NCBI RefSeq assembly: GCF_009905605.1
Contig: NZ_JAAAKZ010000004.1
Location: forward strand, 248,001 to 312,000
Source of the DNA: Runella sp. CRIBMP
Lineage (GTDB): Bacteria > Bacteroidota > Bacteroidia > Cytophagales > Spirosomataceae
Reading direction: 5' to 3'
Length of the DNA stretch: 64,000 bases
This document shows positions 2,199 to 20,551 of this stretch, piece by piece. The translations under genes and the position numbers were made by a program. Under the pieces are notes generated by a model that was given only the letters and a program-made list of their open reading frames with translations, was not told the DNA's origin and did not search any database. Within the stretch, counting starts at the first letter, position 1. Every line of letters begins with the position of its first letter.

Positions 2199-3680
2199 AT
2201 GGCAGCAAAATATCCGGGGCTTTTCTTTAGCGATTATTCCCTTCTTTGGCAACAAATCAAACGAATCATCGGCGTTCATAAACATTGGCTGTACGTGGCT
2301 GATGAACAAAGTGTGACCAACGTGAAAGAATTTTTCGAGGTTGAATTGGTTGATAATGAAGGAGATGTTGTTTCGTCGGGAGAGTTTTTTTTGCGGGAAC
2401 AAGTTGTGCGGGCAAAACCCGTGATGAAAGCATTACAGGCCCATATCAGCGCCATTCCTGCTGAAATGCAAGCAGATTCGGTCTTCTTTTTTGAAATGAC
2501 GTGGGCGGTCAGAACGCCCTCGGGCGATATTTATCTGCGCGAACTGCACGAAGCGTTTCAGGAACTGTTGGTTTCGTACCCTGTCACCATCGTGTGCGTC
2601 TACAACGAGTCGGTGTTGTTGGACGAACAACTGCTTTTGGGCTTGTTTTCTCACCCCGAAATTTACACCCACGAGGGGCTGAAAGCGAATCCGTATTATT
2701 TGCCGCCCCGTATTATTAAAAAAAATCAACTAAAACCGCGCTTCAACTACTGGCTTTCCACCATTGATACGCATCAGGTGGTGGATGAAGTACAGGTGGC
2801 GGTAGAGACAAACGACGAAAAACAGGCGTACCCTTTGGAGCGGCCTTTTCAAACCATGACCGCCCAAACCAACGAAGGGCGCTGGAAAATCAGGTGTTTG
2901 GGAGAAGTTCGGATTTACCGCGAAAATGGCCAATTGATTGACTGGAACACCAAAGCAGGTGCTACGCGCAAATTAAAAACCCTGTTTGCTTTTTTGTTGA
3001 TTCGCGGGGAAAAAGGAGCTAATACGGAAGAATTAGCCGATTTGCTCTGGTCGGAAGCCGACAGCATCGAGCAGTCCCTGAATCGTTTGTACCACGCTAT
3101 CCGTTTTTTGCGGCTCGTGCTCAACGGCCATGATGATGCCTCAAAACAATCTTCTTTTATCGTGCATCAAGGCTCAATATATTATTTACGACTGCCGTAC
3201 GACAGTTGGATTGACCTGCCGATGTTTCAGGAGTTGTGTTTCAAAGGCAACCAGCACCTGAAAGAGGGCAATTTGGAGCAATGTAAGATTTGCTACGAGT
3301 CGGCGGAGCGGCTTTACACGGGCGACCTTTTTATGGACATTCCGCTCAAATACGTAGAGAACAATGAAAATGATTGGTGCTGGAGCAAACGCACGTGGTA
3401 CCGAGAAATGTACTACAAACTTCTATACAGTTTAGCAAAAATTCACCGGCAAATGGGGAATCTCTCGCTGGCGATAAACTACTGCGACAAAGCCCTCGGC
3501 GAAAATCCCAATTTGGAAGAAGCCCACAAGGAAAAATTGCTGGCATTGGCCGAATCAAAGCGATTTGACGCCCTGCACCGACAGTACCGAATCTATACTG
3601 AATCGCTCAAAAAATTCAATATCGGAGCACCTTCGGAGGAAATCAGACAATTATATTTGAATCTTTCTAAAAAGAATTAA
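2199..3680 (+). CDS. SARP/BTAD-type transcriptional regulator
   Basis: Likely DNA-binding activator. About 493 residues from the ATG at 2199; an in-frame ATG at 2178 is an alternative start. The first ~230 residues match nothing I can name. At about 234-330 there is an OmpR-like winged-helix segment (LGEVRIYRENG, TRKLKTLFAFLLIRGEKGANTEELADLLW, SLNRLYHAIRFLRLVL), and from about 335 to the end a helical BTAD/TPR region (GDLFMDIPLKYVENNE, LAINYCDKALGENPNLEEAHKEKLLAL). In classical SARPs the DNA-binding domain is at the N-terminus; here it sits in the middle behind an unknown domain that could be a sensor. It lies directly upstream of the P450 operon on the same strand, so control of the Cre-like genes is the natural inference. 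Confidence 0.75.
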   Translation: MAAKYPGLFFSDYSLLWQQIKRIIGVHKHWLYVADEQSVTNVKEFFEVELVDNEGDVVSSGEFFLREQVVRAKPVMKALQAHISAIPAEMQADSVFFFEMTWAVRTPSGDIYLRELHEAFQELLVSYPVTIVCVYNESVLLDEQLLLGLFSHPEIYTHEGLKANPYYLPPRIIKKNQLKPRFNYWLSTIDTHQVVDEVQVAVETNDEKQAYPLERPFQTMTAQTNEGRWKIRCLGEVRIYRENGQLIDWNTKAGATRKLKTLFAFLLIRGEKGANTEELADLLWSEADSIEQSLNRLYHAIRFLRLVLNGHDDASKQSSFIVHQGSIYYLRLPYDSWIDLPMFQELCFKGNQHLKEGNLEQCKICYESAERLYTGDLFMDIPLKYVENNENDWCWSKRTWYREMYYKLLYSLAKIHRQMGNLSLAINYCDKALGENPNLEEAHKEKLLALAESKRFDALHRQYRIYTESLKKFNIGAPSEEIRQLYLNLSKKN

Positions 3681-3723
3681 AATACTACTAAAAAAACCAA
3701 AGAAAAACCAAAGGATTGTTTTC

Positions 3724-3731
3724 TACATTTG
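3724..3731 (+). promoter_or_regulatory. -7 promoter box of the Cre-like operon
   Basis: TACATTTG is a perfect TAnnTTTG match, 39 bases before the P450 ATG. No good TTTG partner is visible at the expected upstream distance (the stretch is A-rich), which would fit a promoter that needs an activator, perhaps the regulator encoded just upstream. Confidence 0.6.
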
Positions 3732-3769: not shown

Positions 3770-4996
3770 ATGAGCACCTGTCCCTATCACAAAATAAGCG
3801 AAGAATTCAAGCCTTTTGATCTCACAAATCCTTTTCCATTTTACAAAAAATCGAGGGACGAGCAGCCTGTATTTTACAGCCAAGAATTAGGGTATTACGT
3901 CGTGACCCGCTACGAAGATATTAAGGCGGTGTTTAGCAATTGGAAAACCTACACCTCCGAAAATGCCCAATCGCCGTTTAAACCGATTGCGCCGAAAGCC
4001 AAAAAATTAATGGAAGACCAAGGCATGATTGGTCTGTCGGGCCTGTCGGGACGCATCCCACCCGACCACACACGTATACGCCGTATCGTTAGCATGGCCT
4101 TCAACTTGAGTCGCTTCAAAAAGCTCGAACCAGGCATCAGGGCGTTGGCCATTGAGATGATCGAAAAGTTTGAAAACGAAGGCCACGCCGAAATCGTGAA
4201 GCAGTTGGCGTATGATTTGCCCGCCTTGGTGATATTTATGTTGTTGGGGGTGCCCAACGAAGATGTGCAGCAGGTAAAAAGCTGGGCCGAAAGCCGCTTG
4301 CTGATTACTTGGGGCGATTTGACGGAAGAAGAGCAGTTGGTTCACGCCCAAAATATGGTGAGGTATTGGGAATATTGCCAAAACTTGGTAGCGCTGCGCA
4401 AAGAAAATCCCACCGACGATTTGCCGGGAGATTTGGTGCGGTTGCAGGCCGAAGGTCACGAAATCAGCGACCGCGAGATTGCGGCGATTTGTTACAGTCA
4501 GCTGTTTGCAGGCCACGAAACCACCACTTCGTTGATGGGCAACGGCATCCGCGAGTTGTTGCTCCATCCTGAAAGTTGGAACGCCATCTGCGAGAATCCT
4601 AGCCTGATTCCCAACGCGATTGAAGAAATCCTTCGGTTTTCACCGTCGATTGTATCTTGGCGCCGTAAAGCACTGGAAGACAGCGAAATCGGAGGTGTGA
4701 CCATTCCAGCGGGTTCTAATTTATTGTTGGTGATGGGTTCGGCAAATCGGGATGAAGCCAATTTTGAAAATGGAGAAACCTTTGATATTCAACGGCCCAA
4801 CGCCAAAGAGCACCTGTCGTTTGGCTACGGCATCCATTTTTGTTTGGGTTCGTCCTTGGCAAAACTAGAATTTAAGATTGTGCTTGAAGAACTGACCCGC
4901 AAGATTCCACACCTCACCATTAAAGAAAATCAAGTCTTTCAATTTGCCCTAAATACCTCATTCAGAGCGCCCGTGGCCTTGGAAGTGGAGTGGTAA
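3770..4996 (+). CDS. creJ: Cytochrome P450, CreJ-like aryl-phosphate methyl hydroxylase
   Basis: A soluble class I bacterial P450 of 408 residues. Seen directly: I-helix oxygen-binding motif AGHETTT at 247-253, the ExxR motif in EEILRF, and the haem-binding loop FGYGIHFCLG at 351-360 with Cys358 as the iron ligand. The start at MSTCPYHK is supported by the TAnnTTTG box 39 bases upstream; the longer TTG-initiated frame would begin upstream of that box. The set of neighbours (two-part phosphotransferase, HD phosphohydrolases, ferredoxin and reductase in the same run) matches the Cre pathway, where CreJ oxidises the methyl group of 4-methylphenyl phosphate. Substrate is inferred from context only; P450 fold and electron-transfer type are firm. 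Confidence 0.85.
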   Translation: MSTCPYHKISEEFKPFDLTNPFPFYKKSRDEQPVFYSQELGYYVVTRYEDIKAVFSNWKTYTSENAQSPFKPIAPKAKKLMEDQGMIGLSGLSGRIPPDHTRIRRIVSMAFNLSRFKKLEPGIRALAIEMIEKFENEGHAEIVKQLAYDLPALVIFMLLGVPNEDVQQVKSWAESRLLITWGDLTEEEQLVHAQNMVRYWEYCQNLVALRKENPTDDLPGDLVRLQAEGHEISDREIAAICYSQLFAGHETTTSLMGNGIRELLLHPESWNAICENPSLIPNAIEEILRFSPSIVSWRRKALEDSEIGGVTIPAGSNLLLVMGSANRDEANFENGETFDIQRPNAKEHLSFGYGIHFCLGSSLAKLEFKIVLEELTRKIPHLTIKENQVFQFALNTSFRAPVALEVEW

Positions 4997-5023: not shown

Positions 5024-6097
5024 ATGAAATACACGTTGTTTTTTAAAGAAGCTTTGCCCGAAGAATATTATTTGTTGGGCGGCAAAGGGGCAAGTTTGGC
5101 CAGCATGAGTGCTGCTGATTTGCCAGTTCCCGTTGGTTTTTGCATTACTACCCACGCTTACGCCGACTTCTTGCAAGGTTCTGCGCTTGCTGAGGCTATT
5201 TACGAAAAAGTAAACGGCATTGATTGCGCCAACGTGGCTGAATTGGATAAGGTATCGGAAGAAGTGCGCGGTTTATTATTGGTAAGTCCGTTGCCTTCCG
5301 AAGTAGAGCATAGCATCAAAGCTTCGTATCACCAACTTTGTGCCCTCGCAGGAGCCACCAATGACCTGCCCGTGGCGGTGCGGTCGAGTGCCACCGCCGA
5401 AGACCTGCCAGATGCGAGTTTTGCGGGACAACAAGACACCTATCTGTGGGTGGTGGGAGAGGAGGAGGTCATCGAACACGTACGCCGTTGCTGGGCGAGT
5501 TTGTACACCTCGCGGGCCATCAATTATCGTCGCAACCAGCAAATCAAAGAAGACGAAGTGCTGATGAGTGTGGTGATTCAAAAAATGGTCAATGCCCGCA
5601 CCGCTGGCGTTGCCATGACGCTCAATCCGACCAACGGCGACCGCTCCAAAATCGTCATTGACGCTTCTTGGGGGCTGGGTGAGGCGGTGGTGTCGGGAGA
5701 AGTTACGCCAGATAACTTCTTGGTAGACAAGGTAATGATGGAAATTCTTGAGTCAAATATTCAAAACAAACACATCGAACACGTACCCGATAAAATAAAC
5801 CGTCGGGTGCTAACGCGCGAGATTGTGGACGAGCGGGCCACGCAGTCCAGCCTGAGCGAAGAGGAAGTGAAAATCGTGTGTCGGATGGCAAAAATTATCG
5901 AGAAACATTACCGATGTCCGCAGGACATTGAGTGGGCGATTGATGCCGATTTGCCCGCTGGTCAGAATTTTACGCTTCTTCAAAGCCGCCCCGAAACCGT
6001 CTGGTCGCAGAAAAAAGCCCCCGCCGCTTCTTCCATCAAAACGGGTATGGAAGGCATTTTGAATACCCTTATGAACCCTTTAGCAAGTAAAAAATAA
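5024..6097 (+). CDS. creH: Phosphotransferase ATP-grasp subunit (CreH-like; PEP-synthase N-domain)
   Basis: Predicted ATP-binding half of a two-subunit enzyme that phosphorylates p-cresol using a phosphohistidine relay. At 357 residues it corresponds to the N-terminal domain of PEP synthase or pyruvate phosphate dikinase and to the small subunit of phenylphosphate synthase. Visible motifs are GGKGASLASM near residue 20, VAVRSSATAEDLPDASFAGQ at about 117-136, the AGVAMTLNP segment, ASWGLGEAVVSGEVTPD, and the C-terminal DIEWAID and LLQSRPETVW. There is no swivelling His domain in this chain; it is in the next gene. It starts 27 bases after the P450 stop codon, in one operon. Confidence 0.82.
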   Translation: MKYTLFFKEALPEEYYLLGGKGASLASMSAADLPVPVGFCITTHAYADFLQGSALAEAIYEKVNGIDCANVAELDKVSEEVRGLLLVSPLPSEVEHSIKASYHQLCALAGATNDLPVAVRSSATAEDLPDASFAGQQDTYLWVVGEEEVIEHVRRCWASLYTSRAINYRRNQQIKEDEVLMSVVIQKMVNARTAGVAMTLNPTNGDRSKIVIDASWGLGEAVVSGEVTPDNFLVDKVMMEILESNIQNKHIEHVPDKINRRVLTREIVDERATQSSLSEEEVKIVCRMAKIIEKHYRCPQDIEWAIDADLPAGQNFTLLQSRPETVWSQKKAPAASSIKTGMEGILNTLMNPLASKK

Positions 6098-8698: not shown

Positions 8699-10126
8699 AT
8701 GGAAAATTATATAAATGGGAAATGGGTAAAACCACATTCGGCCCAATACGCCGATGTGCTCAATCCCAGCACGGGTGCAGTTCTTGAAAGGTTTGCGTGC
8801 AGCAATCCAGAAGATGTCAATGCGGCACTGGAATCGGCAAAAGTGGCGTTTAAATCTTGGAAAAAGACGCCCGTTGCTCACCGGGCCAAGTTGCAGCACC
8901 AAGCCGCGCAATTGATGCGCAAACACGCCGACGACCTCGCCCGAACCATTGCCAACGAACTCGGCAGGCCGCTGGCGGGCTGCCTGACCGAAATCAGTCG
9001 AAGTGCCGATTTGTTCGATTTTTACGCCGAAGAGGGCCTTCGTTTGAAAGGAGAAGTGCCATTGCATAACCTCGAAGGCGAAAAAGCGCTAATTGTGCGC
9101 GAGCCCGTTGGCGTAGTGGTGGCCATTACGCCGTTCAATTACCCGATTACGCTGCTGACCATGAAATTGGGCGCGGCGCTGATGGCAGGTTGTACGGTGG
9201 TGTCCAAACCGTCGGAAGATACGCCGCTTTCGACACTGAAACTGGCCGAAATTTTTACCGAAGCGGGCTATCCCGAAGGGGTTTTTAATGTCATTACGGG
9301 CTATGGCTATGACATTGGCAATGCGCTCATTGAGCACTCAATAACGGCCAAAATCGCCTTTACGGGCGGCACGGGCACGGGGATGCGCATCGGGGCATTG
9401 GCGGCGGCACATAATAAACGTGTCACGCTTGAATTGGGCGGTCAGTCGCCCGCGATTGTGTGTGCCGATGCAGATTTGGCCGTGGCTATCCCCGCCATTG
9501 TTCGTCATGCGTTTGCCAACAGTGGTCAGTTTTGCTACCGCGTCAATCGTCTGTACGTGCATGAGGCCATTTATGTCGATTTTCTGGACCGAATGGTGGC
9601 GTTGACCGAAAAACTAACCGTGGGGCATCCGTTTTCAGGCTGCGACATGGGGCCGATGGTGAATCAAAAGATTTACCAAAACAGCGAAAATCAGGTGCAA
9701 GACGCCTTGCATAAAGGAGCACTTTTGAAAACAGGCGGCCACCGATTGACGGGTGAACTGTATGACAAAGGCTGGTTTTTCCCGCCCACGATTTTGGCTG
9801 ATACCAACCATTCAATGCACATCATGACCCAAGAAACCTTTGGGCCCGTGGTGGGAGTGATGCCTTTTCAAACCAACGAACAGGCCGTAGCATGGGCCAA
9901 CGATTCGGATTTTGGATTGGCCGCCTATGTGTTTTCGGAACAACTCGGCACGGGACTGCGCATTGCGGAGTCGCTAGAAGCAGGCTCGGTTTGGATCAAC
10001 AACATTCACCGTTCGTACCACGATGTGCCGTTTGGTGGGGTAAAACAAAGCGGAATCGGGCGTGAAAAAGGCCACTACGGCATCGAGGCGTATACCGAAT
10101 TAAAAACCATTTACCTGAATTACTAG
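8699..10126 (+). CDS. creC: NAD(P)-dependent aldehyde dehydrogenase (4-hydroxybenzaldehyde, CreC-like)
   Basis: Predicted to oxidise 4-hydroxybenzaldehyde to 4-hydroxybenzoate. A complete 475-residue ALDH-superfamily protein: nucleotide-binding FTGGTGTGMRIG, general base Glu245 in LELGG, and catalytic Cys279 in SGQFCYR, with the usual ETFGPVVGVMPF block near the end. It sits tightly between two HD phosphohydrolase genes (4 bases upstream, 0 bases downstream), so dephosphorylation and aldehyde oxidation are translated together. The succinic-semialdehyde or benzaldehyde type of ALDH cannot be told apart by eye; the substrate rests on the pathway. Confidence 0.83.
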   Translation: MENYINGKWVKPHSAQYADVLNPSTGAVLERFACSNPEDVNAALESAKVAFKSWKKTPVAHRAKLQHQAAQLMRKHADDLARTIANELGRPLAGCLTEISRSADLFDFYAEEGLRLKGEVPLHNLEGEKALIVREPVGVVVAITPFNYPITLLTMKLGAALMAGCTVVSKPSEDTPLSTLKLAEIFTEAGYPEGVFNVITGYGYDIGNALIEHSITAKIAFTGGTGTGMRIGALAAAHNKRVTLELGGQSPAIVCADADLAVAIPAIVRHAFANSGQFCYRVNRLYVHEAIYVDFLDRMVALTEKLTVGHPFSGCDMGPMVNQKIYQNSENQVQDALHKGALLKTGGHRLTGELYDKGWFFPPTILADTNHSMHIMTQETFGPVVGVMPFQTNEQAVAWANDSDFGLAAYVFSEQLGTGLRIAESLEAGSVWINNIHRSYHDVPFGGVKQSGIGREKGHYGIEAYTELKTIYLNY

Positions 10127-10726
10127 ATGTTGCGTACCCAAGACATCCCGCTTTGGGAAGTAGCCAAAATCCATTTGAACGTTCGTAACAACAACGAACA
10201 TACGCTGTTTGCTTACTTGCTGGTGACCCAATTGCTTGAAAAATACCCAGAAGCCAACCCAGATGTGGTGTTGCCAGCCATTCTTTTTCATGATACAGGC
10301 TGGTCTAAAATACCGAAAGACAAGATTTTGCACGCCTTTGGCCCCAATAATAAATATCCCGAATTGACGCGCCAACATGAATTGGAAAGTGTCGCAATTG
10401 CACAAAAAGAACTGCCCGTTTTAGGGTTTCATCAACCACAAATTAACGAAATCATCGCGGTCATTGACGGGCACGATACCACCAAACAGGCGCGCTCGGT
10501 CAACGATGCGGTGCACAAAGACGCTGATAAGCTCTGGAGGTATACGCCGCATGGCAACCGCATCATTGGCGAGTGGTTTGGCATTGGACAGGCTGAAGTT
10601 CTGGAGATTTTGGAAAATTTCGTTTGGCCAACGTTTTTGACCGACGAAGGAAAAAGGCTTTCTGGTCTGCTGTTGGAGTTGGCGAAATTGGACTTGAACT
10701 TAAAAAAATACGTAGCCCATGTTTGA
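10127..10726 (+). CDS. HD-domain phosphohydrolase, second CreD-like paralogue
   Basis: A 199-residue HD protein with LFHDTGW, VIDGHDTT and KDADKLWRY, clearly a paralogue of the 8107-8694 product. Its ATG follows the aldehyde dehydrogenase stop with no gap and its end overlaps the SDR gene by 8 bases, so it is translationally coupled on both sides. Two hydrolases in one operon could handle different phosphate esters (alcohol, aldehyde or acid forms of the aryl phosphate) or form a heteromer. Which of the two is the true CreD equivalent cannot be decided from the sequence, so no symbol is given here. Confidence 0.75.
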   Translation: MLRTQDIPLWEVAKIHLNVRNNNEHTLFAYLLVTQLLEKYPEANPDVVLPAILFHDTGWSKIPKDKILHAFGPNNKYPELTRQHELESVAIAQKELPVLGFHQPQINEIIAVIDGHDTTKQARSVNDAVHKDADKLWRYTPHGNRIIGEWFGIGQAEVLEILENFVWPTFLTDEGKRLSGLLLELAKLDLNLKKYVAHV

Positions 10727-11459
10727 GCTAAAAGATAAAATCGTTGTGATTACGGGTGCGGCGGGTGGACTCGGCCGGGCCTTTGCGCAGGCCTTTGTTG
10801 CTCAGGGAGCCAAGGTCGTTGTTTGTGATAAAAACTACGCAGGAGCGCAAGAAACGGCACAAATGCTAGGCGGAATGGCCCTTGAAGTGGACGTGACCAG
10901 TGAGCAATCCGTGGAAAAAATGGCGAATGAAGTGCTGGCTACCTTCGGTAAAATTGACATTTTGGTCAACAACGCCGCCATCTATGCGACTATTCAACGC
11001 AAGCCTTTTTATGAACTTACAGAAGCCGAATGGGACTTGGTGCTTGACGTCAATTTGAAAGGCGTCTGGTTGGTGTCAAAAGTCGTTTGTCGGTCGATGC
11101 GCGCCAATAATTACGGCAAAATCATCAACATTTCTTCGGCAACCGTCATGAGTGGGTCGCCCAATTGGTCGCATTATGTGGCCTCCAAGGGGGGCGTCAT
11201 CGGCCTGACGCGCTCCATGGCCAAAGAACTGGGTGATTTCAACATCAATGTCAACGCCATTGCGCCGGGCTTTACACTCACCGAAGCCAGTTTGGGCCTG
11301 ATGGAAAATGCTGCCAAATACGGCGTAGACCGAGGGGCCATCAAACGCCCGTCAACGATGGAAGATATTGTGGGCACGGCCCTCTATTTGGCTTCCTCTG
11401 CCGCTGATTTCGTAACGGGCCAAACCATCGTGGTGGACGGCGGTAAGCAGTTTATTTAG
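10719..11459 (+). CDS. creG: SDR-family alcohol dehydrogenase (CreG-like)
   Basis: Predicted to oxidise 4-hydroxybenzyl alcohol to 4-hydroxybenzaldehyde. It is a classical 246-residue short-chain dehydrogenase: TGAAGGLG cofactor loop near residue 12, NNAA in the core, and the catalytic Tyr153-x3-Lys157 in HYVASKGG, with an N-terminal DK after the second strand that points to NAD rather than NADP. It overlaps the upstream HD gene by 8 bases. The CreG role is assigned by position and by being the only alcohol-dehydrogenase type gene in the run; I cannot confirm that it is orthologous to the Corynebacterium protein. Confidence 0.72.
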   Translation: MFELKDKIVVITGAAGGLGRAFAQAFVAQGAKVVVCDKNYAGAQETAQMLGGMALEVDVTSEQSVEKMANEVLATFGKIDILVNNAAIYATIQRKPFYELTEAEWDLVLDVNLKGVWLVSKVVCRSMRANNYGKIINISSATVMSGSPNWSHYVASKGGVIGLTRSMAKELGDFNINVNAIAPGFTLTEASLGLMENAAKYGVDRGAIKRPSTMEDIVGTALYLASSAADFVTGQTIVVDGGKQFI

Positions 11460-11524: not shown

Positions 11525-11845
11525 ATGCCAAAGGTAATTTATATCGAAAACAACGGAACAGAGCACCAAGTGGATTTGCCGTTGGGGGCTACCTTAATGG
11601 AAGGAGCCGTTCAGAACGACATCAAAGGAATTGTGGCCGAATGTGGCGGCTCATGCATGTGCGCCACCTGCCATATTTACGTGGATGAACAATTTATGGG
11701 GCTTTTGCCCGAAATGGAAGAAGAAGAAAACGAAATGCTCGAAGGTGCGACCGCCGAGCGCATGTCCAACAGTCGTTTGGGGTGTCAAGTACGTATTTCC
11801 AACAAATTGGACGGAGTCATTGTCCGTATTCCTGAAAAACAATGA
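11525..11845 (+). CDS. creF: [2Fe-2S] ferredoxin, putidaredoxin/adrenodoxin type (CreF-like)
   Basis: Electron carrier from the reductase to the P450. The 106 residues contain the vertebrate/putidaredoxin-type cluster ligands Cys40, Cys46, Cys49 and Cys87 in ECGGSCMCATC and RLGCQV, plus a spare Cys44. The acidic helix EEEENEML after the cluster loop is the usual docking surface for reductase and P450. A 65-base gap without a clear promoter box precedes it, and its stop overlaps the reductase start in an ATGA. The E/F letters for ferredoxin and reductase follow my memory of the Cre naming. Confidence 0.85.
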   Translation: MPKVIYIENNGTEHQVDLPLGATLMEGAVQNDIKGIVAECGGSCMCATCHIYVDEQFMGLLPEMEEEENEMLEGATAERMSNSRLGCQVRISNKLDGVIVRIPEKQ

Positions 11846-13041
11846 GTGTAAAAGTCGTCATCATCGGTGCCGGGCACGGGGGGGTGCAGGCGGCCGCGTC
11901 GTTGCGAGAAGAAGGATTTGAGGGTGAAATGGTGTTGATTTCGGAAGAAAATGACCTGCCTTACCAGAAACCGCCATTGTCTAAGGGCTATTTGCAGGGA
12001 AAGCAGTCGGAGGAGGCCATTTTGTTTCGTTCCCCGCATTTTTTTCAAAACCACCAGATTGACCTTCGGTTGGGGGTCAATATCGCTCAACTTGATACCG
12101 AGGGGCAGTTGGTGATTACGAAAGAAGGCGAGACTATCGACTACACGCATTTGATCTTAGCGACGGGGGCTACCAACCGCAAATTAACGATGGAAGGGGC
12201 CGCCGACGTGCTTTACCTGCGTACTTTAGCCGATGCCAAAGCCATTGCACACCGACTGGATACTGCTCGTAAAATAGCCATCATTGGCGGTGGGTTTATC
12301 GGCCTCGAATTGGCCGCGTTAGCGCAGGAAAAATGCAAAGAAGTAAGTGTTATTGAGGCGCAGTCGCGGTTGATGGAACGGGTGCTACCCGCGGTTATCT
12401 CGGATGTTTTTCAAAAAACGCACGAGGAATGCGGGGTTCAAGTACACCTGAATGCCCTGACAAAGTCCATTGAGAATCATTGTATTATAACTAAAGAGGG
12501 CAAAAAAATCGAAGCAGATTTGATACTGGCGGGCATTGGGGTTATTCCCGAAACGTCGTTGGCGGAGGAGGCGGGAATTGCCTGCGAAAATGGTATTTTG
12601 GTGAACGAATTCCAACAAACTTCGGTCGCCAACATTTACGCCATCGGCGATTGTGCTAATCATTACAATGCTTTTGCCCAAAAAAGAATACGGTTGGAAT
12701 CGGTTCAAAATGCCGTTGACCAAGCCAAAACGGCCGTAAATCACGTATTGGGCAAAACCCAACCTTACCATGCAGTGCCGTGGTTTTGGACTAATCAATA
12801 CCATTTGAAACTCCAAATGGCGGGAATTTCGGCGGGCTTTGACCGCTATGTACTGAGAGGCGATGTCGACGCCGATAAGTTTTCGGTCTATTATTTCCAA
12901 GAAAATCGGTTGATTGCCGTTGATTCGCTCAATCGTCCCGCCGACCACCTCAATGCGCGTAAATTGTTGGCTGCCCAGATAAGTCCTACCGACGCTCAAA
13001 TCGGCGACTTGAATGTGAACTTGAATCAATTGTTGGGTTAA
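11842..13041 (+). CDS. creE: FAD-dependent ferredoxin reductase (CreE-like)
   Basis: NAD(P)H-ferredoxin reductase of the putidaredoxin reductase family that feeds the P450. It has 399 residues, with FAD-binding GAGHGG near residue 9, the LPYQKPPLSKGYLQGK segment of this family, the NAD-binding GGGFIGLE at about residue 152 and YAIGDCAN near 270. It starts inside the ferredoxin stop codon (4-base ATGA overlap). It is the last gene of the first transcription block; the next gene downstream is on the other strand. Confidence 0.85.
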   Translation: MSVKVVIIGAGHGGVQAAASLREEGFEGEMVLISEENDLPYQKPPLSKGYLQGKQSEEAILFRSPHFFQNHQIDLRLGVNIAQLDTEGQLVITKEGETIDYTHLILATGATNRKLTMEGAADVLYLRTLADAKAIAHRLDTARKIAIIGGGFIGLELAALAQEKCKEVSVIEAQSRLMERVLPAVISDVFQKTHEECGVQVHLNALTKSIENHCIITKEGKKIEADLILAGIGVIPETSLAEEAGIACENGILVNEFQQTSVANIYAIGDCANHYNAFAQKRIRLESVQNAVDQAKTAVNHVLGKTQPYHAVPWFWTNQYHLKLQMAGISAGFDRYVLRGDVDADKFSVYYFQENRLIAVDSLNRPADHLNARKLLAAQISPTDAQIGDLNVNLNQLLG

Positions 13042-13073: not shown

Positions 13074-13949
13074 TTAGTTCTTCCTAAACTCGCTCGGAGC
13101 CACCCCCGTGTATTTTTTAAACAAACGTGTAAAATAGGCGGGGTCTTTGAAGTTTAGAAAGTAAGAAACCTCTGATATTGAGTAGGTTGTATTGAGTAAA
13201 TATTTTTTTGCTTCGTTGATTAAGTATTCGTGCACCACTTGCAGGGCAGATTTTTGGACTAAGTTTTGACAAATTCGATTGAGATGAACGGCCGTAATGT
13301 TCAACTCTTTGGCGTATTGATTGATGGATTTTGACTCTTGCAACGACTGTTTGATGCTCTTCTGAAACCCCTGAAAATACTGCAACGTTCGATTGTCAGA
13401 AGTGGTCACGGGGCTGCTTTGGGTGAGGGCCTGTCGGTAAATCGTCAGGAATAATAATTGAAAAAGGGATTGCAAAACCGCCTGTTTTTCGGGGTTTTCT
13501 TCGAGCAATTCCTTCATAATCTCCGTTTTAAGGAATAAAATTCGGTAAAATACCAAATCGTCATCGGCAAAAGATAGCTGTTTTAAGCGACTAATTTCGA
13601 GGGCGATTTTGGGGGAGTTTTTGAAAAGACTCTCCAAAAATGACTCCGAAAACGTGATGACCTCGCCCACAATTGCTGGCTGAAACATAAACCCGTGCAG
13701 CGTATTGGCGGGAATGGTAATCAGACAAGGGCTTGCAATCGCAAATTCTTTGTTTTCAGACCTCAGCACCCCGCTTCCCGATTGAATGATAAATACCTGA
13801 TACAAATCGGTATGCAGGTGCTCGTGAATTTCCCAATCATAGATTTTACTCCTGGTTTCCAATAATTCATGGTGGATGAAATTGGGTACCAGCGGCGAGC
13901 GATTATCACCGTATAAGCCTTTGAAATTAACAAGCCCTTTTGGATTCAT
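13074..13949 (-). CDS. AraC-family transcriptional regulator (PobR-like position)
   Basis: Likely activator of the neighbouring aromatic genes. It has 291 residues: an N-terminal cupin-like sensing half with HEHLHTDLYQVFIIQSGSG and IPANTLHGFMF, and a C-terminal AraC double helix-turn-helix at about 195-291 ending in ISEVSYFLNFKDPAYFTRLFKKYTGVAPSEFRKN. It is transcribed away from pcaH across a 254-base gap that holds a promoter box and a dyad. AraC-type regulators of pobA respond to 4-hydroxybenzoate in other bacteria; the same effector here is an inference. Confidence 0.85.
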   Translation of the reverse strand: MNPKGLVNFKGLYGDNRSPLVPNFIHHELLETRSKIYDWEIHEHLHTDLYQVFIIQSGSGVLRSENKEFAIASPCLITIPANTLHGFMFQPAIVGEVITFSESFLESLFKNSPKIALEISRLKQLSFADDDLVFYRILFLKTEIMKELLEENPEKQAVLQSLFQLLFLTIYRQALTQSSPVTTSDNRTLQYFQGFQKSIKQSLQESKSINQYAKELNITAVHLNRICQNLVQKSALQVVHEYLINEAKKYLLNTTYSISEVSYFLNFKDPAYFTRLFKKYTGVAPSEFRKN

Positions 13950-14077
13950 GATATGTTCTGAAAATACAAGAATAAATATAGACTATTTCTGTAATGAATC
14001 CATCAAATGAATGTAAATAAGTCACTAAATGCTTGTTTTAAAGGTGTTTAAAATAATAATTTCTCTTTTGTTAAATA

Positions 14078-14100
14078 AAACATGTCTAAGCAAAATGTTT
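14078..14100. promoter_or_regulatory. Dyad in the araC-pcaH intergenic region
   Basis: AAACAT (14078-14083) and ATGTTT (14095-14100) form an inverted repeat with an 11-base spacer, centred 110-120 bases upstream of pcaH. It could bind a dimer, for example the divergent AraC-type regulator, but it is short and in AT-rich sequence. Confidence 0.3.
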
Positions 14101-14153
14101 ATTTTATACAAGTAATATTTTAATTAATCCAAGAATTTATTTAACACGTCCCA

Positions 14154-14161
14154 TACCTTTG
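14154..14161 (+). promoter_or_regulatory. -7 promoter box of the pca-pob operon
   Basis: TACCTTTG is a perfect TAnnTTTG match, 42 bases before the pcaH ATG. As at the P450 operon, the matching upstream TTTG box is not evident, which fits activator-dependent expression. The rest of the 13950-14203 gap is AT-rich without another clear element. Confidence 0.6.
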
Positions 14162-14203
14162 TTGGACTGAAAAAAGAAACTTCCTCCTCAAAATTGTACC
14201 GCA

Positions 14204-14911
14204 ATGAGCCAACTCATTTATAATACTTTCGATTATGAAGTCCAGCCGCCTCGGCTTGCTCCCGATTATAAATCGACCGTACTGCGTGCACCTAGCAAGC
14301 CGTTAGTCGTCGTAAAACAGTCGCTATCGGAGTTGACAGGGCCTGTTTTCGGGGATTTTAACTTGGGCGAATTTGACCATGACCTGACCAAGAATTCCAT
14401 TAAAAACGGCGAGCCAATGGGCGAACGCATCGTGGTGCATGGCAAAGTGATGAATGAAAACGGGCGGCCGATTCCTAATACGCTGATTGAGATTTGGCAA
14501 GCCAACGCGGCGGGCCGGTACGTCCATAAAGTAGACCAACACGATGCGCCGCTCGACCCTAATTTTCTGGGCGCGGGGCGCTGTATGACGGATTCGGAAG
14601 GAAACTATCGGTTTTATACCATCAAACCGGGGGCGTATCCTTGGGGCAACCATCCCAACGCGTGGCGGCCCAACCACATCCATTTTTCGTTGTTTGGGGC
14701 CAATATCACCAACCGGTTGGTGACCCAAATGTACTTTCCTGGCGACCCATTGTTGCAGTATGACCCCATTTTTCTGGGCGTGCCGCCCAAAGGACGTGAG
14801 TTGCTGATTTCAACCTTTGATTTGAGCATCACCGAGCCCAATTTTGCGCTTGGCTACCGTTTTGACTTTGTTTTAAGGGGGCATCAGGCTACTCCGTTTG
14901 AAAATGTATAA
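14204..14911 (+). CDS. pcaH: Protocatechuate 3,4-dioxygenase beta subunit
   Basis: Iron-carrying subunit of the ring-cleaving enzyme that converts protocatechuate to 3-carboxy-cis,cis-muconate. It has 235 residues. The Fe(III) ligands are visible as Tyr106 (GRYVHK), Tyr145 (GAYPW), His158 and His160 (NHIHFS), with the same spacing as Tyr108, Tyr147, His160 and His162 of the Pseudomonas enzyme. First gene of the pca-pob operon; its stop codon shares a base with the pcaG start (TAATG). Confidence 0.95.
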   Translation: MSQLIYNTFDYEVQPPRLAPDYKSTVLRAPSKPLVVVKQSLSELTGPVFGDFNLGEFDHDLTKNSIKNGEPMGERIVVHGKVMNENGRPIPNTLIEIWQANAAGRYVHKVDQHDAPLDPNFLGAGRCMTDSEGNYRFYTIKPGAYPWGNHPNAWRPNHIHFSLFGANITNRLVTQMYFPGDPLLQYDPIFLGVPPKGRELLISTFDLSITEPNFALGYRFDFVLRGHQATPFENV

Positions 14912-15453
14912 TGAATTTTAACACAACAATTGCCATGTTACAAACGCCTTCCCAAACCGTCGGGCCCTATTTCGCGTACGGACTCACGCCCGAACAATAT
15001 TTATATGATTTTAAAAGCCTGTCCAATAATGAATTAGCCAAGCCTCTCGACGAAGCCAACGTCGTTATGGTGGTGGGTAAAGTTTTTGATGGCAACGGCG
15101 ACGTTATTCCAGATGCGATGATTGAGATTTGGGATACGCAGCACCAACGTTTTGGGCGTTTCGGGACGGGTACCGACCCCCAAAATCGGTTTATTTTTCA
15201 TACATTTAAACCCACGTCGGTCGATGGGCAGGCACCGCACCTGAGCGTGATTGTGTTCATGCGTGGGCAGCTAATCCATTCTTATACGCGTATTTACTTT
15301 GAAGATGAAGCGGAACTTAATGCACAGGACGAAATTTTAAACGCCGTGCCGACCGACCGACGCAATACGCTCATCGCCTCAAAAAATGCGGCGGGTTATG
15401 AATTCAATATTTACATGCAGGGCGAAAACGAAACGGTATTTTTTGAGATTTAA
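14911..15453 (+). CDS. pcaG: Protocatechuate 3,4-dioxygenase alpha subunit
   Basis: Non-catalytic partner subunit of PcaH; the two form the (alpha-beta)n dioxygenase. The 180 residues show the LQTPSQTVGPYFAYGLTPEQ opening and the IEIWDTQHQRFGRFGT and HLSVIVFMRGQ blocks of the alpha chain, lacking the second Tyr and both His ligands. The ATG at 14911 overlaps the pcaH stop; an internal ATG at 14938 would remove nine residues, but the overlap argues for coupling at 14911. Confidence 0.93.
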   Translation: MNFNTTIAMLQTPSQTVGPYFAYGLTPEQYLYDFKSLSNNELAKPLDEANVVMVVGKVFDGNGDVIPDAMIEIWDTQHQRFGRFGTGTDPQNRFIFHTFKPTSVDGQAPHLSVIVFMRGQLIHSYTRIYFEDEAELNAQDEILNAVPTDRRNTLIASKNAAGYEFNIYMQGENETVFFEI

Positions 15454-15464
15454 CCACCCCTAAA

Positions 15465-16784
15465 ATGGGCTTATACAGCGAATTGTTTTATTCGGACCAC
15501 ATCAATGAGCTTTTTTCGGAGAGGAATACCATTGGGCAAATGCTACGCGTAGAGGCCGAATTGGCGCGGGCGCAGGAAGCGGCAGGGGTGATTCCTGCGG
15601 GAGTGGCCGACCTCATTGCACTATGTTGTCAGCCCGATTTGATTGATATGCCCCGCCTTAAATCTGAAATAAAATTGGGGGGCAATGCCGCGATTCCGTT
15701 GGTAAAACAATTGACCCGTATTGTAAAAAACAATGACGTAGAAGCCTCAAAATACGTGCACTTAGGCGCTACTAGTCAGGATATTGTGGATACAGCCACC
15801 GTTTTGCAGGTGCAGGAGTTTGGTCAATGGTTAGCACAAAAATTAAAGGTGCTCGTCCTTCATTTAGTAGAAAAAACGAGCAGCTATCGAAATACGCCCA
15901 TGATTGGCCGGACGCTGCTCCAACAGGCGCGACCGATTACGTTTGGCCTGAAAACGGCGGGTTGGCTGGAGAGCATCGGCCGAACACAGGAGCGCATTGA
16001 CGACGTGAAAAAACGTCTTTTGGTGGTTCAGTTGGCGGGCGCGGTAGGGAGTGGTAATGCGCAGATTTCGAGCGAGGTACAGCAACTTTTTGCCCAGAAT
16101 TTAGGAATAAAATCCGCGTTTTCGTGGCAGTCAAACCGCGACACTTTCGCCGAATGGGCGAGCGTATTGGGGATTTTGACGGGCACTTTGGGTAAAATCG
16201 CCAAAGATGTTTCGCTGCTGATGCAAACCGAAGTGGGAGAGGTGTATGAAGGTGCAGCGGAAGGGAAAGGTGGGTCGAGTACCATGCCGCACAAGCGCAA
16301 CCCCGTTACCTGCGCGGCCATGCTGGCCAACGCCGCCCGGATGCCGCACTTGGTGGCTACGATGCTTACTGCCATGCCGCAGGAGCACGAGCGTTCGGCA
16401 GGGCTTTGGCATTCAGAATGGGAAGTGTTGACCCAAATCATGACCATGACGGCGGGCACGCTAGAACGAGCCATTGAATTGCTAGAAGGATTGGAAGTGG
16501 ATGAAAAGCGTATGTTGGCCAATCTGGAACTGACCCAAGGGTTGATTTATGCAGAAAACGTATCGCTGGCCTTGGCGCCCAAAATGGGCAAAAATCAGGC
16601 CCACGAATGGGTCGAAAAAGCCTGTAAAATCGCCATTGCGCAGCAAAAACACTTAAAAGAAGTACTGCTAGAATCGAAAATAGATGTACCCTCAGTGGAC
16701 GAACTGTTTAAGCCCGAAAACGCCCTGGGGCTGAGTTTAGAAATGATTGATAAGGTATTGAAGAAATTTGGACATATAAGATGA
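15465..16784 (+). CDS. pcaB: 3-carboxy-cis,cis-muconate cycloisomerase
   Basis: Second step of the protocatechuate branch: lactonises 3-carboxy-cis,cis-muconate to 4-carboxymuconolactone. The 439 residues belong to the fumarase/aspartase superfamily. The signature loop GSSTMPHKRNP lies at about 270-280, and the HLGATSQDIVDTA block near residue 101 is typical of PcaB. It lies 11 bases after pcaG and overlaps the next gene by 4 bases. Confidence 0.93.
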   Translation: MGLYSELFYSDHINELFSERNTIGQMLRVEAELARAQEAAGVIPAGVADLIALCCQPDLIDMPRLKSEIKLGGNAAIPLVKQLTRIVKNNDVEASKYVHLGATSQDIVDTATVLQVQEFGQWLAQKLKVLVLHLVEKTSSYRNTPMIGRTLLQQARPITFGLKTAGWLESIGRTQERIDDVKKRLLVVQLAGAVGSGNAQISSEVQQLFAQNLGIKSAFSWQSNRDTFAEWASVLGILTGTLGKIAKDVSLLMQTEVGEVYEGAAEGKGGSSTMPHKRNPVTCAAMLANAARMPHLVATMLTAMPQEHERSAGLWHSEWEVLTQIMTMTAGTLERAIELLEGLEVDEKRMLANLELTQGLIYAENVSLALAPKMGKNQAHEWVEKACKIAIAQQKHLKEVLLESKIDVPSVDELFKPENALGLSLEMIDKVLKKFGHIR

Positions 16785-17920
16785 AAACCAACTATAAACT
16801 TCAGGGAACCCCCAACAGCCCCGTGCTGATTTTTTCTAACTCGCTGGGGTCAGAAATGATGATGTGGGATGAACTCGTTCCGTATCTCTTGCCCTATTTT
16901 CGCGTGTTGCAATACGATACCCGAGGCCACGGCGGCAGCCATGTAGAATCGTCTTCGGCCGCATCATACACCATTGGCCAATTGGGCCAAGACGTCATTG
17001 ATTTGATGGACGGCCTCGGCATCGATACCGCCTGTTACTGCGGTCTTTCGATGGGTGGATTGATTGGGCAATGGCTGGGGATTCATTACCCAAATCGTTT
17101 CAAAAAGATTGTTTTGAGCAATACAGGTGCTAAAATCGGGAATGATGAGCGTTGGAATTCACGCATCGAAACCATCACCCAACAAGGAATGCAGGCCATC
17201 GTGGACGATACCATGGAGCGGTGGTTTACAGAATCGTTTCGGCAGCAAAATCCCCAACGCGTGGCCGAGACCAAAGCCATGTTTTTGCGTAGTCACGTGG
17301 AGGGATACGCCGCTTGTTGCGGTGCCATCCGCGATGCTGATTTTAGAGAAACGCTGACGCAGTTATCCGTTGAAACACTGGTGATTACGGGGGATGAAGA
17401 CCCAGTCACGAACGTTGAGCAGGCGGAGTTTTTGGCAAAGCATATCCCTCATGCCACTTTGGAAGTGCTACATGCCCGGCATCTAGCAAGTACCGAATTG
17501 CCCCAGGAATACGCCCAAACACTCATTGATTTTCTGGTTGGCGACACGGCCTTTAAGAAGGGAATGCACGTTCGGCGGTCGGTGTTGGGTGAAGAACACG
17601 TTGACAAAGCAAATGCTAATATCAATCCCTTTAATGCTGATTTTCAGTATTTTATTACCAACTACGCTTGGGGTGAAATCTGGACGCGCCCTGATTTGTC
17701 GAAGCACAACCGCAGTCTTATCACCTTGGCGATGTTGATTGCGCTCAACCGAAAAGCGGAATTTAAAATGCACGTTAGGGCGGCCTTTAATAACGGCGTA
17801 ACGGTGGCTGAAATCAAAGAAATTATCATGCATTCGGCCCTTTACTGCGGCTTGCCAGCGGCCAATGAAGCCTTTCATACGGCGCAGGAGGTCATCAATG
17901 AACTGAACATAACTACCTAA
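16781..17920 (+). CDS. pcaL: 3-oxoadipate enol-lactonase / 4-carboxymuconolactone decarboxylase fusion
   Basis: Two consecutive enzymes of the pathway in one 379-residue chain. Residues 1-255 are an alpha/beta hydrolase with nucleophile Ser90 in GLSMGG and the HARHLAS His near the end (enol-lactonase, PcaD). Residues about 265-375 are the carboxymuconolactone decarboxylase domain with HVRAAFNNGVTVAEIKE and HSALYCGLPAANEAF (PcaC). The D-C fusion, called PcaL, is known from actinobacteria. In chain order the second reaction comes first. It overlaps pcaB by 4 bases and is followed by pobA after 3 bases. Confidence 0.92.
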   Translation: MKTNYKLQGTPNSPVLIFSNSLGSEMMMWDELVPYLLPYFRVLQYDTRGHGGSHVESSSAASYTIGQLGQDVIDLMDGLGIDTACYCGLSMGGLIGQWLGIHYPNRFKKIVLSNTGAKIGNDERWNSRIETITQQGMQAIVDDTMERWFTESFRQQNPQRVAETKAMFLRSHVEGYAACCGAIRDADFRETLTQLSVETLVITGDEDPVTNVEQAEFLAKHIPHATLEVLHARHLASTELPQEYAQTLIDFLVGDTAFKKGMHVRRSVLGEEHVDKANANINPFNADFQYFITNYAWGEIWTRPDLSKHNRSLITLAMLIALNRKAEFKMHVRAAFNNGVTVAEIKEIIMHSALYCGLPAANEAFHTAQEVINELNITT

Positions 17921-17923
17921 AAA

Positions 17924-19123
17924 ATGAAAACAATAAAAACACAAGTTGGCATCATTGGAGCGGGGCCAGCTGGCTTGACCCTTGCCCATTGGCTCAAAAA
18001 ATACGGCATAGAAGCGGTCATCATTGAGCACCGTAGCCGAGAATATATCCAAGGACGGGTCCGAGCGGGTCTTTTGGAACAAAATACAGTCGATATACTC
18101 AAAGAATTGGGCTTGGCCGACCGCTTGGTCCAAGAAGGACAGGAGCACCACGGAGTCTATTTGAATTTTGACGGAAAGCGCGTTCGAGTGCCTTTCGGAC
18201 AACTTACGGGCGGACGAAACATCACGATTTATGGTCAGCAGGAAGTTGTCAAAGACCTGACGGAGGCTTGGTTGGCGAAGGGTGGTCAATTGTTGTTTGA
18301 AGCCCCCGCCCTTGAACTGGAAGGCATCGAAACCGACAGTCCCAAAATACATTTTGAACACAAGGGCGAAAAAGGCATCATTGAATGCGACTTTATTGCC
18401 GCCTGCGACGGTTTTCATGGTTTGGGCCGTAAATCAATGCCCAAAGACGCCTATAAAGAATATTCGGTCACGTATCCGTTTAGTTGGTTGGGGATTTTGG
18501 CCCACGTGGCGCCCTCTTCCGAAGAACTAATTTATGCCTATCACGAGCGTGGATTTGCCCTGCATAGTTTGCGCTCAGAAAAAGTAAGTCGATTGTACAT
18601 CCAAGTAGAAAACGACGACCACGTTGATAACTGGTCGGACGAGCAAATTTGGGAGGAGCTTTCGGTACGTTTGGGTACCAAAGGTTGGAAGCTGAATTCG
18701 GGGCCGATTTTTGAAAAAAGTATTACGCCCATGCGGAGTTATTTTATTGATAATATGCAACATGGGCGTTTGTTTTTGGCAGGTGACGCCGCCCATATTG
18801 TGCCTCCTACGGGCGGAAAAGGACTGAATCTGGCCGTGGCGGACGTGAAACATTTGGTGGATGGATTCAGAGATTTCTACGAAAAAGCGTCGATGCAAGC
18901 ACTGGATAATTATTCAACCGTTGCCCTGAAACGCATTTGGCGCGCGCAGGATTTCTCCAATTTTATGACTACTCTGTTTCACAAACAATACGAACACGGG
19001 TCGTTTCATTATCAATTGCAAAAGGCAAAATTTGATTATATCCAATTGTCGGAAGCGTACGCAACGACCATCGCCGAAAACTACGTGGGCCTACCTTTTG
19101 AGTCCTTTGAGGCGTTGGATTAG
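17924..19123 (+). CDS. pobA: 4-hydroxybenzoate 3-monooxygenase
   Basis: FAD-dependent hydroxylase converting 4-hydroxybenzoate to protocatechuate; it joins the Cre-like block to the pca genes. The 399 residues, close to the usual ~390, carry GAGPAGLTLAHWL at the N-terminus, the DG motif in ACDGFHGLGRKSMP, and the second FAD motif GDAAHIVPPTGGKGLN near residue 285. It lies inside the pca operon rather than apart with its own regulator, as in many proteobacteria. Confidence 0.93.
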   Translation: MKTIKTQVGIIGAGPAGLTLAHWLKKYGIEAVIIEHRSREYIQGRVRAGLLEQNTVDILKELGLADRLVQEGQEHHGVYLNFDGKRVRVPFGQLTGGRNITIYGQQEVVKDLTEAWLAKGGQLLFEAPALELEGIETDSPKIHFEHKGEKGIIECDFIAACDGFHGLGRKSMPKDAYKEYSVTYPFSWLGILAHVAPSSEELIYAYHERGFALHSLRSEKVSRLYIQVENDDHVDNWSDEQIWEELSVRLGTKGWKLNSGPIFEKSITPMRSYFIDNMQHGRLFLAGDAAHIVPPTGGKGLNLAVADVKHLVDGFRDFYEKASMQALDNYSTVALKRIWRAQDFSNFMTTLFHKQYEHGSFHYQLQKAKFDYIQLSEAYATTIAENYVGLPFESFEALD

Positions 19124-19175
19124 TGTTTTTTTATTGATTTTTACCCATTCTTTTTGAATACTTTATTGATCAAAA

Positions 19176-20522
19176 ATGAAAGAAGTTCCAATTATAGATG
19201 TAGCGACCGCTGCTCAAATGGTCAAAGACGGCGATACGATTTTGCAGGGTGGCTTTGGCATGACGGGAAATCCCGTCCACCTCATGCACGCCTTGGCCGA
19301 AACGGGCACCAAAAACCTTACTTTTATCGGTAACAACGTGGGAGAAGTGGGCATTGGCGGGGGGCGTTTGCTCCGTAATGGGCAGATTAAAAAGATGATT
19401 GGCTCGTTTTTTACGTCCAATCCCGATGCGGTCAAAGCCGCTCAAAGCGGTCAGGTCGCCTATGAACTGTTGCCCCAGGGTACGTTGGCCGAGGCCATTC
19501 GGGCGGGTGGTGCGGGTATTGGAGGTTTTTATACGCCAACGTCGGCGGGGACGCTCATTGCACAAGGCCGTGAAACTAAAATCATTGACGGAACCGAGCA
19601 GGTATTCATCAAAGGAATTCGTGGAAATGTGGCCTTTATTCGGGCGTGGCGGGCCGATACCGCGGGCAATTTACAGTACCGGATGACCGAACAAAACTTT
19701 AACAAAGCCATGGCCACGGCCGCCGATTTGGTCATTGCCGAAGTCGAAGAAATTGTACCTGTGGGAGAAATTGCCCCTGAGCACGTACATACCCCGGGCT
19801 GCTTTGTAAATTATCTGGTACAGGCCACGTTGACCTTGGAAGATTTGGGTTCGTCGGCGTCGGTTTCGTCTTCCAAAAAAGTGGATGAAAGCCGCATGAA
19901 TATGGCCAAACGGGCGTTGGCAGAGCTAAAAAAAGGCGATGTTGTGAATCTTGGCATCGGCATACCTACCCTCGTGGCTGATTTGATTACGGAAGAGCAC
20001 GGCATCATTTTGCACACCGAAAACGGAATGCTGGGCGTAGGCCCCGTGCCTACGGATGGGGGTGGTGCCATGAATTATCCCGTAAATGCGGGTAAAATTC
20101 CCGTAACCGCACTCAAAGGAAGCAGTTATTTCGACAGTGCCGATTCGTTTGCTATGATTCGCGGTCGGCACATCGATGCCGCCATTATGGGTGGTTTGGA
20201 AGTGGACGAAGCCGCCAACTTAGCCAACTGGGCCGTGCCCGGAAAGCCACTCTTGGGCGTGGGTGGAGCGATGGATTTAGCCAAGGGTGCCAAACGCCTC
20301 ATTATCACCATGACGCATACAAACCCCGATGGCTCGTCCAAGATTGTTCCTGCCTGTACGTTGCCGCTGACGGCTTCGGGTGTGGTAGATTTGGTGATTA
20401 CCGATTTGGCCGTGTTTGCTTTTCCAGAAAATAAATTGACGCTTATCGAACTGATGCCTGGCGCGACGTTGGAAGAAGTAAAAGCCAAAACAAGTGCTTC
20501 CTTTGTGGAGCAAATTGCCTGA
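19176..20522 (+). CDS. pcaIJ: 3-oxoadipate CoA-transferase, fused alpha and beta subunits
   Basis: Transfers CoA from succinyl-CoA to 3-oxoadipate. Most bacteria use two chains, PcaI and PcaJ; here residues 1 to about 215 are the alpha part ([27 protein letters not shown]) and about 230 to 448 the beta part with catalytic Glu282 in [11 protein letters not shown] and the [10 protein letters not shown] block. The family cannot be separated by eye from 3-oxoacid CoA-transferases, so the assignment rests on its place between pobA and pcaF. The 52-base gap upstream holds no clear promoter. Confidence 0.87.
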
Positions 20523-20551
20523 AATTGAATCCATTCTATTGAATATATACC

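Follow-up and report, generated by a model that had tools for sequence, protein, structure and literature searches.

Activators of the SARP type are known from actinobacteria, antibiotic producers among them. According to PMC10936776, SARPs bind direct repeats which are 11 or 22 bp apart and whose 3' repeat is located 8 bp from the -10 element; the site of AfsR, at -40 to -19, is made up of two 11-bp repeats and overlaps the -35 element, the initial 8 bp of a repeat being contacted and the remaining 3 not. As regards the MEDS domain, the sensing of small hydrocarbon derivatives has been proposed, and regulators harbouring it have been described or suggested next to genes for ethylene/epoxide and for the breakdown of dichloromethane (PMC11507031, PMC8784404). 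The breakdown of 4-cresol is begun by CreHI through phosphorylation (PMC9618137, PMC12167813).

In the Runella locus described here, a regulator gene immediately precedes a set of cre genes. We consider it quite probable that its product is a dedicated one-component activator of the SARP type which is gated by a ligand and switches on cre from a promoter of the Bacteroidota kind, a reading which builds on its domains, its co-occurrence with the cre genes, one conserved operator-like site and the missing -33 box of the promoter. The regulator is composed as follows, positions being those of the window, i.e. the whole analysed stretch of 64,000 nucleotides:

2199 to 3680, plus strand: regulator gene (MEDS, winged helix, BTAD), 493 amino acids, with orthologs in 15 further genomes, 14 of them aligned
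2199 to 2717, plus strand: N-terminal sensory domain, residues 1-173, with Pfam MEDS on 29-153 and a predicted RecA/KaiC-like fold without Walker A
2718 to 2861, plus strand: variable linker, residues 174-221, at 23-51% identity once the near-identical Runella are set aside
2862 to 3158, plus strand: winged-helix domain for DNA binding, approximately residues 222-320, from Pfam, NCBIfam, alignment and fold matches
3210 to 3656, plus strand: BTAD/TPR-like activation domain, residues 338-486 (Pfam E 1e-11), with fold matches to AfsR, EmbR and TPR proteins

The gene is genuine, as originally assumed: its frame is open from an ATG at 2199 to a stop codon at 3678-3680, and among the other 15 cre-positive genomes there are 14 in which homology starts within residues 1-7. 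Its host stands near Runella aurantiaca, with 98% identity in the regulator. The regulator of genome G541 is split over two contigs and was left out of the set of 15 sequences (window and 14 orthologs) referred to below. The SARP-like architecture which the original prediction had put forward was supported, the BTAD exceeding its curated Pfam cut-off (45.8 versus 22.1 bits) and being matched in all 15 sequences at E<=1 (best 4.1e-15). The winged helix ahead of it is weak by sequence. Pfam Trans_reg_C aligns to residues 256-312 with an E-value of 0.15 and 12.5 bits (cut-off 26.2) and is matched at E<=1 in 13 of the 15 sequences, while the NCBIfam AfsR model aligns to 223-390 with an E-value of 1.4e-6, yet reaches 26.6 bits, far below its cut-off of 1430. 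The top-ranked fold matches of the full-length model are AfsR transcription initiation complexes with promoter (8k60, 8hvr), and EmbR is found at rank 4; these AfsR and EmbR matches are local, extending over about 250 columns with a TM score on the query of 0.28-0.29 and an rmsd of about 15 Å, and TPR proteins follow close behind. The AlphaFold2 model from which they stem is poor in its middle, the winged-helix part showing a pLDDT mostly below 50. When solved structures were searched with the single regulator sequence, AfsR was found at E 0.02; with a profile of the regulator alignment TPR proteins came first and AfsR reached E 0.19, weaker than with the single sequence. Among 14 genomes compared, identity outside the close Runella group amounts to 42-56% in the MEDS domain, 63-77% in the winged helix and 72-83% in the BTAD. 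No plasmid-borne relative of the whole regulator was found at E<=1e-3, two Deinococcus records matching just residues 219-438 and 230-438.

The original prediction had regarded the N-terminal part as a new domain of unknown fold. This did not hold, as the HMM search assigns residues 29-153 to the Pfam family MEDS (PF14417, DcmR-type sensory domain) with 34.6 bits versus a cut-off of 29.8, and all 15 regulator sequences scanned were matched. The structure prediction proposed at that time was carried out and yielded a RecA/KaiC-like fold. The model of residues 1-190, built from 6 sequences (pLDDT 82.5, pTM 0.83), matches RecA-like ATPases, with 2ekd as the best hit (Z 12.6, rmsd 3.2 over 158 residues) and RAD51, FlaH and KaiC (3k09: Z 11.5, rmsd 3.6 over 154) tied together about one Z unit behind; the best Foldseek E-value is 1.8e-4. 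A Walker A motif, GxxxxGK[ST], is present in none of the 15 orthologs. The natural reading of the model would be an eroded ATPase fold serving as a sensor. Among 28 hand-picked genomes of the family, the MEDS search gave one match in each of the 13 cre-positive genomes and none in the 15 cre-negative ones; all 13 exceed the cut-off, that of G064 only with its neighbours in the frame.

Downstream of the regulator, the following genes are present:

3770 to 4996, plus strand: cytochrome P450, CreJ-like, 408 amino acids from the ATG at 3770, with 5gwe/5xjn as best solved matches
5024 to 6097, plus strand: ATP-grasp (PPDK_N) kinase subunit, CreI-type (Pfam; subunit naming after PMC12167813)
6170 to 7984, plus strand: swivel/phenol-binding kinase subunit, CreH-type (profile matches; naming likewise after PMC12167813)
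8044 to 8694, plus strand: HD-domain phosphohydrolase (Pfam), putatively CreD-like by its position
8699 to 10126, plus strand: aldehyde dehydrogenase (Pfam)
10127 to 10726, plus strand: second HD-domain protein (Pfam)
10719 to 11459, plus strand: SDR dehydrogenase (Pfam)
11525 to 11845, plus strand: 2Fe-2S ferredoxin (Pfam)
11842 to 13041, plus strand: ferredoxin reductase (profile match)

The P450 matches 5gwe/5xjn, which we take to be CreJ, with 491 bits, the next solved structure reaching 294. From regulator to reductase all genes share one orientation and are spaced by -8 to 89 bp, the gap between regulator and P450 amounting to 89 bp, and the cre genes are probably co-transcribed. A CreJ-type P450, a CreHI-type kinase, an HD phosphohydrolase and dehydrogenases in one operon are predicted to break down p-cresol (4-cresol). 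The closest described gene sets are the plasmid-borne cre clusters of Rhodococcus (pRB98; R. ruber Y14) and creHI of Corynebacterium glutamicum. With the Rhodococcus clusters the locus shares the succession of regulator, P450, PEP/pyruvate-binding subunit and PEP-utilizing subunit, and then has SDR, ferredoxin, reductase, HD and ALDH in common. In both annotated Rhodococcus plasmid clusters, however, the regulator at that position is of the IclR type instead of MEDS-BTAD, so that one type of operon is governed by distinct regulators from phylum to phylum. A kinase homolog of Azoarcus was discarded as a cre counterpart since its cluster is that of a phenylphosphate carboxylase, has a regulator of the sigma-54 type and belongs to a different pathway.

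Behind the cre operon, on the other strand, an AraC gene is found at 13074-13949 (HpaA model 157.7 bits, below its cut-off of 274.65), and behind it genes which, read from their translations, we take to be pcaHG, pcaB, pcaDC, pobA, pcaIJ and pcaF, presumably the route from 4-hydroxybenzoate onward. This AraC/HpaA-like regulator and pca/pob-like block (13074-21760) follows the cre operon in 7 of the 12 loci, counting the window, whose flank is long enough. Together with the cre genes it suggests that a route from p-cresol to beta-ketoadipate is gathered at a single location.

In a draw of 222 genomes of the family the regulator is present in 16, and the CreH-type subunit (up to five candidates scored per genome) in the same 16 (Fisher 1e-24, kinship ignored); as these 16 genomes belong to one family and are partly near-identical, the counts do not represent independent events. 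The further draws overlap with this one and with each other. Both genes occur in an identical 12 of 119 relatives, and among 395 genomes of the phylum, with up to three candidates scored per genome, near-full-length regulator and CreH-type subunit are confined to the same two Runella genomes. Five further regulator matches in the phylum (E<=1e-10) were rejected as orthologs, comprising the C-terminal half only at 26-30% identity. The four regulator matches among 217 genomes of the order all belong to the known 16, the CreH-type subunit having been searched in the draws of 119, 395 and 222. Within the genus Runella, 7 of 13 genomes have both regulator and CreH-type subunit and 6 have neither. 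Near-full-length orthologs were thus found in cre-positive genomes only, and the proposed link of the regulator to the Cre operon withstood the search for copies without Cre.

All 16 genomes keep one gene order from regulator to reductase wherever their contigs extend, those of G002, G597, G599 and G541 ending within the locus. The exception is the second HD gene (10127-10726), which is found in 14 of the 16; it was not found in G540, and the contig ends in G597. Of the window genes ahead of the regulator, three were found in the four closest Runella only. Distances between regulators correlate with those between kinases (r 0.94 over 14 of the 16 genomes, a value attained in none of 9999 permutations). 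The regulators of Runella G001, G003 and G008 (L061, L065, L066) share 55-57% identity with that of the window, while the complete copies of other genera share 59-69%; that the Runella proteins are farther away than those of other genera points to horizontal transfer of the whole cassette.

Alternatively, cre might be run by the AraC/HpaA-like regulator (13074-13949), whose gene immediately follows the cre operon and precedes the pca/pob-like genes, with another role left to the MEDS-BTAD protein. The distribution of the AraC gene makes us regard this as very improbable. It is located within 2 kb of the operon end in just 7 of the 12 loci with at least 4.6 kb of flank (window included), close orthologs (65-74%) exist in the cre-negative genomes G004, G007, G011 and G062, and none was found in the cre-positive genome G002, which is 83% complete. 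The AraC gene would be a better fit for the 4-hydroxybenzoate/protocatechuate genes.

Upstream of the P450, the search for a motif ahead of 3724 in related genomes, as proposed originally, revealed two repeats which are invariant in 16 of 16 loci:

3695 to 3702, plus strand: upstream repeat AACCAAAG of the candidate operator, invariant in 16/16 loci
3706 to 3713, plus strand: downstream repeat AACCAAAG of the candidate operator, 11 bp from the first, invariant in 16/16 loci
3724 to 3731, plus strand: -7 box TACATTTG in the promoter of the P450 (cre), separated by 10 bp from the second repeat, without a -33 box

Each gap between regulator and P450 holds AACCAAAG-N3-AACCAAAG-N10-TAnnTTyG, whereby the 8-mers, the 11-bp period and the 10-bp gap are invariant. 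In the repeat region 17 of 19 positions are invariant; of the 40 positions ahead of it (coding end and 14 bp) 19 are invariant as well, and none after the -7 box as far as read. Within the regulator coding sequence (15 sequences), taken as a control, none of 36 four-fold sites at invariant residues is unchanged, 17 third positions are unchanged in 454 gap-free codon columns, and the best 19-nt stretch has 13 invariant positions. No third repeat was seen 11 bp further upstream in the 16 loci. The exact 20-letter operator pattern has a single occurrence per cre genome in all 16 and is missing from the other 206, and its reversed control occurs in none; the pattern being derived from the same 16 loci, its presence there is given by construction and the weight lies on its absence in the 206 and on the lack of second copies. 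We take the conserved AACCAAAG pair as the site most likely gripped by the regulator.

Instead, the repeats might be bound by another, more general factor, or belong to an RNA or leader element, with the regulator acting elsewhere. That they begin at a constant 14 bp past the regulator stop codon in 15 of 16 loci (the frame of G540 being broken) would suit such a reading. A general factor, though, would need many sites, and the exact site is found once per genome and only together with cre. When up to two mismatches are allowed, the 16 genomes hold no more sites than expected from the control, 224 versus 257 for the reversed pattern, with the largest excess in G048 (22 versus 12); among the sites listed, those with one mismatch are few (G599, G048, G049, G001), and we do not propose a regulon beyond cre. 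In addition, the repeats keep a fixed distance from the -7 box but stand at variable distances from the P450 start, which speaks for a DNA and against an RNA element. Hence, we see hardly any room for this explanation and retain the AACCAAAG pair as the putative operator of the regulator.

The perfect -7 box of the P450 promoter, TACATTTG at 3724-3731, and the lack of a -33 box are as originally described: neither TTTG nor TTG is present at a spacer of 15-25 bp in the window, and TTTG is missing in 16 of 16 loci. Three Runella loci show a weaker -7 box, TACCTTCG. With TAnnTTTG placed at -12 to -5, as mapped in Flavobacterium (PMC9723704), the repeats fall at -41 to -34 and -30 to -23 and would lie about 1 bp off the register of the AfsR operator. 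The cre promoter and the targets of AfsR and other SARPs share direct repeats with an 11-bp period next to the -10 or -7 element which replace a good -35 or -33 box, and AfsR and other SARPs of Streptomyces share the BTAD and probably the winged helix with the regulator. Between repeat and promoter box, however, there are 10 bp in the cre promoter where the rule for SARPs in general would give 8, and some 220 residues including the MEDS domain precede the DNA-binding domain. Since this domain is not the first one and the operator gap is 2 bp off, we file the regulator as SARP-like and not as a typical SARP. In contrast to AfsR, its sensor is N-terminal and of the MEDS type, its host belongs to the Bacteroidota and its target is catabolic. 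Repeat sequence and recognition-helix residues differ, too. The putative recognition helix, residues 295-305 (NRLYHxIRxLR), is largely invariant among the orthologs (N295, R296, L297, Y298, H299, R302, L304, R305); in the HMMER alignment from which the equivalence to AfsR was read, the base-contacting T88 and R92 of AfsR correspond to H299 and F/Y303, a difference as expected with another repeat sequence. EmbR of Mycobacterium resembles the regulator in its fold across winged helix and BTAD, but has a C-terminal FHA domain (PMC10936776) and no MEDS domain.

The same protein could occupy the same site as a repressor which blocks sigma at the -33 zone and leaves upon ligand binding. MEDS is named after DcmR, which reportedly is a repressor, and the repeats do span the zone of the -33 box. 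BTAD and the near-AfsR register are, however, features of an activator, and as the -33 box is missing in 16 of 16 loci there would be little promoter to repress, so that repression appears improbable to us.

For the activator which we favour, we infer binding to the AACCAAAG site, activation, a ligand and a dimer. The MEDS domain would sense a small aromatic compound related to the pathway, p-cresol or an early intermediate; a sensor of p-cresol or an early product is its likely role. The phenol or its phosphate, named as ligand in the original prediction, would be candidates. On sensing, two protomers would sit side by side on the two AACCAAAG repeats 11 bp apart, in the place where the -33 box would be. 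From this position the regulator may guide RNA polymerase, together with the primary sigma factor, onto the -7 box that stands alone, by a sigma adaptation like that of AfsR, as geometry and homology suggest. Taken jointly, a degenerate RecA/KaiC-like MEDS phenol sensor would gate a SARP module, sigma adaptation would operate on Bacteroidota -33/-7 promoters with the operator replacing the -33 box, and switch, operator and cre would move between species as a self-regulated cassette; towards this wider reading we lean with some reserve. The regulators DcmR, EtnR2 and that of M. crimeensis are alike in that MEDS stands beside genes for the breakdown of small hydrocarbon derivatives, but serve other substrates, and a BTAD is not mentioned in the accessible parts of PMC11507031 and PMC8784404.

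New is the conserved candidate operator in the gap between regulator and P450. In the open-licence literature searched, neither “MEDS domain” together with BTAD or SARP nor Runella together with cresol was found. MEDS, for which few signals are described, is hereby tied to one operon, one candidate operator and few candidate ligands, which makes the question of what it binds directly testable. The regulator represents a compact candidate sensor of p-cresol, and SARP-type activation is predicted outside actinobacteria, on a very different type of promoter.

Autoregulation was considered and rejected, as the region upstream of the regulator is by eye unlike between species and has no double repeat in the window. 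In locus L056 (G540:C12) the frames of the C-terminal end of the regulator and of both kinase genes are broken, reflecting either sequencing errors or decay, and the operator is intact. Ultimately, a hairpin, CCGCCCCGAG..CTCGGGGCGG followed by TTTT, is located at 2089-2133 between the preceding gene and the regulator and resembles an intrinsic terminator; 3' of it a possible regulator promoter is present, with TATACTTG at 2156 and TTTG 21 bp upstream.
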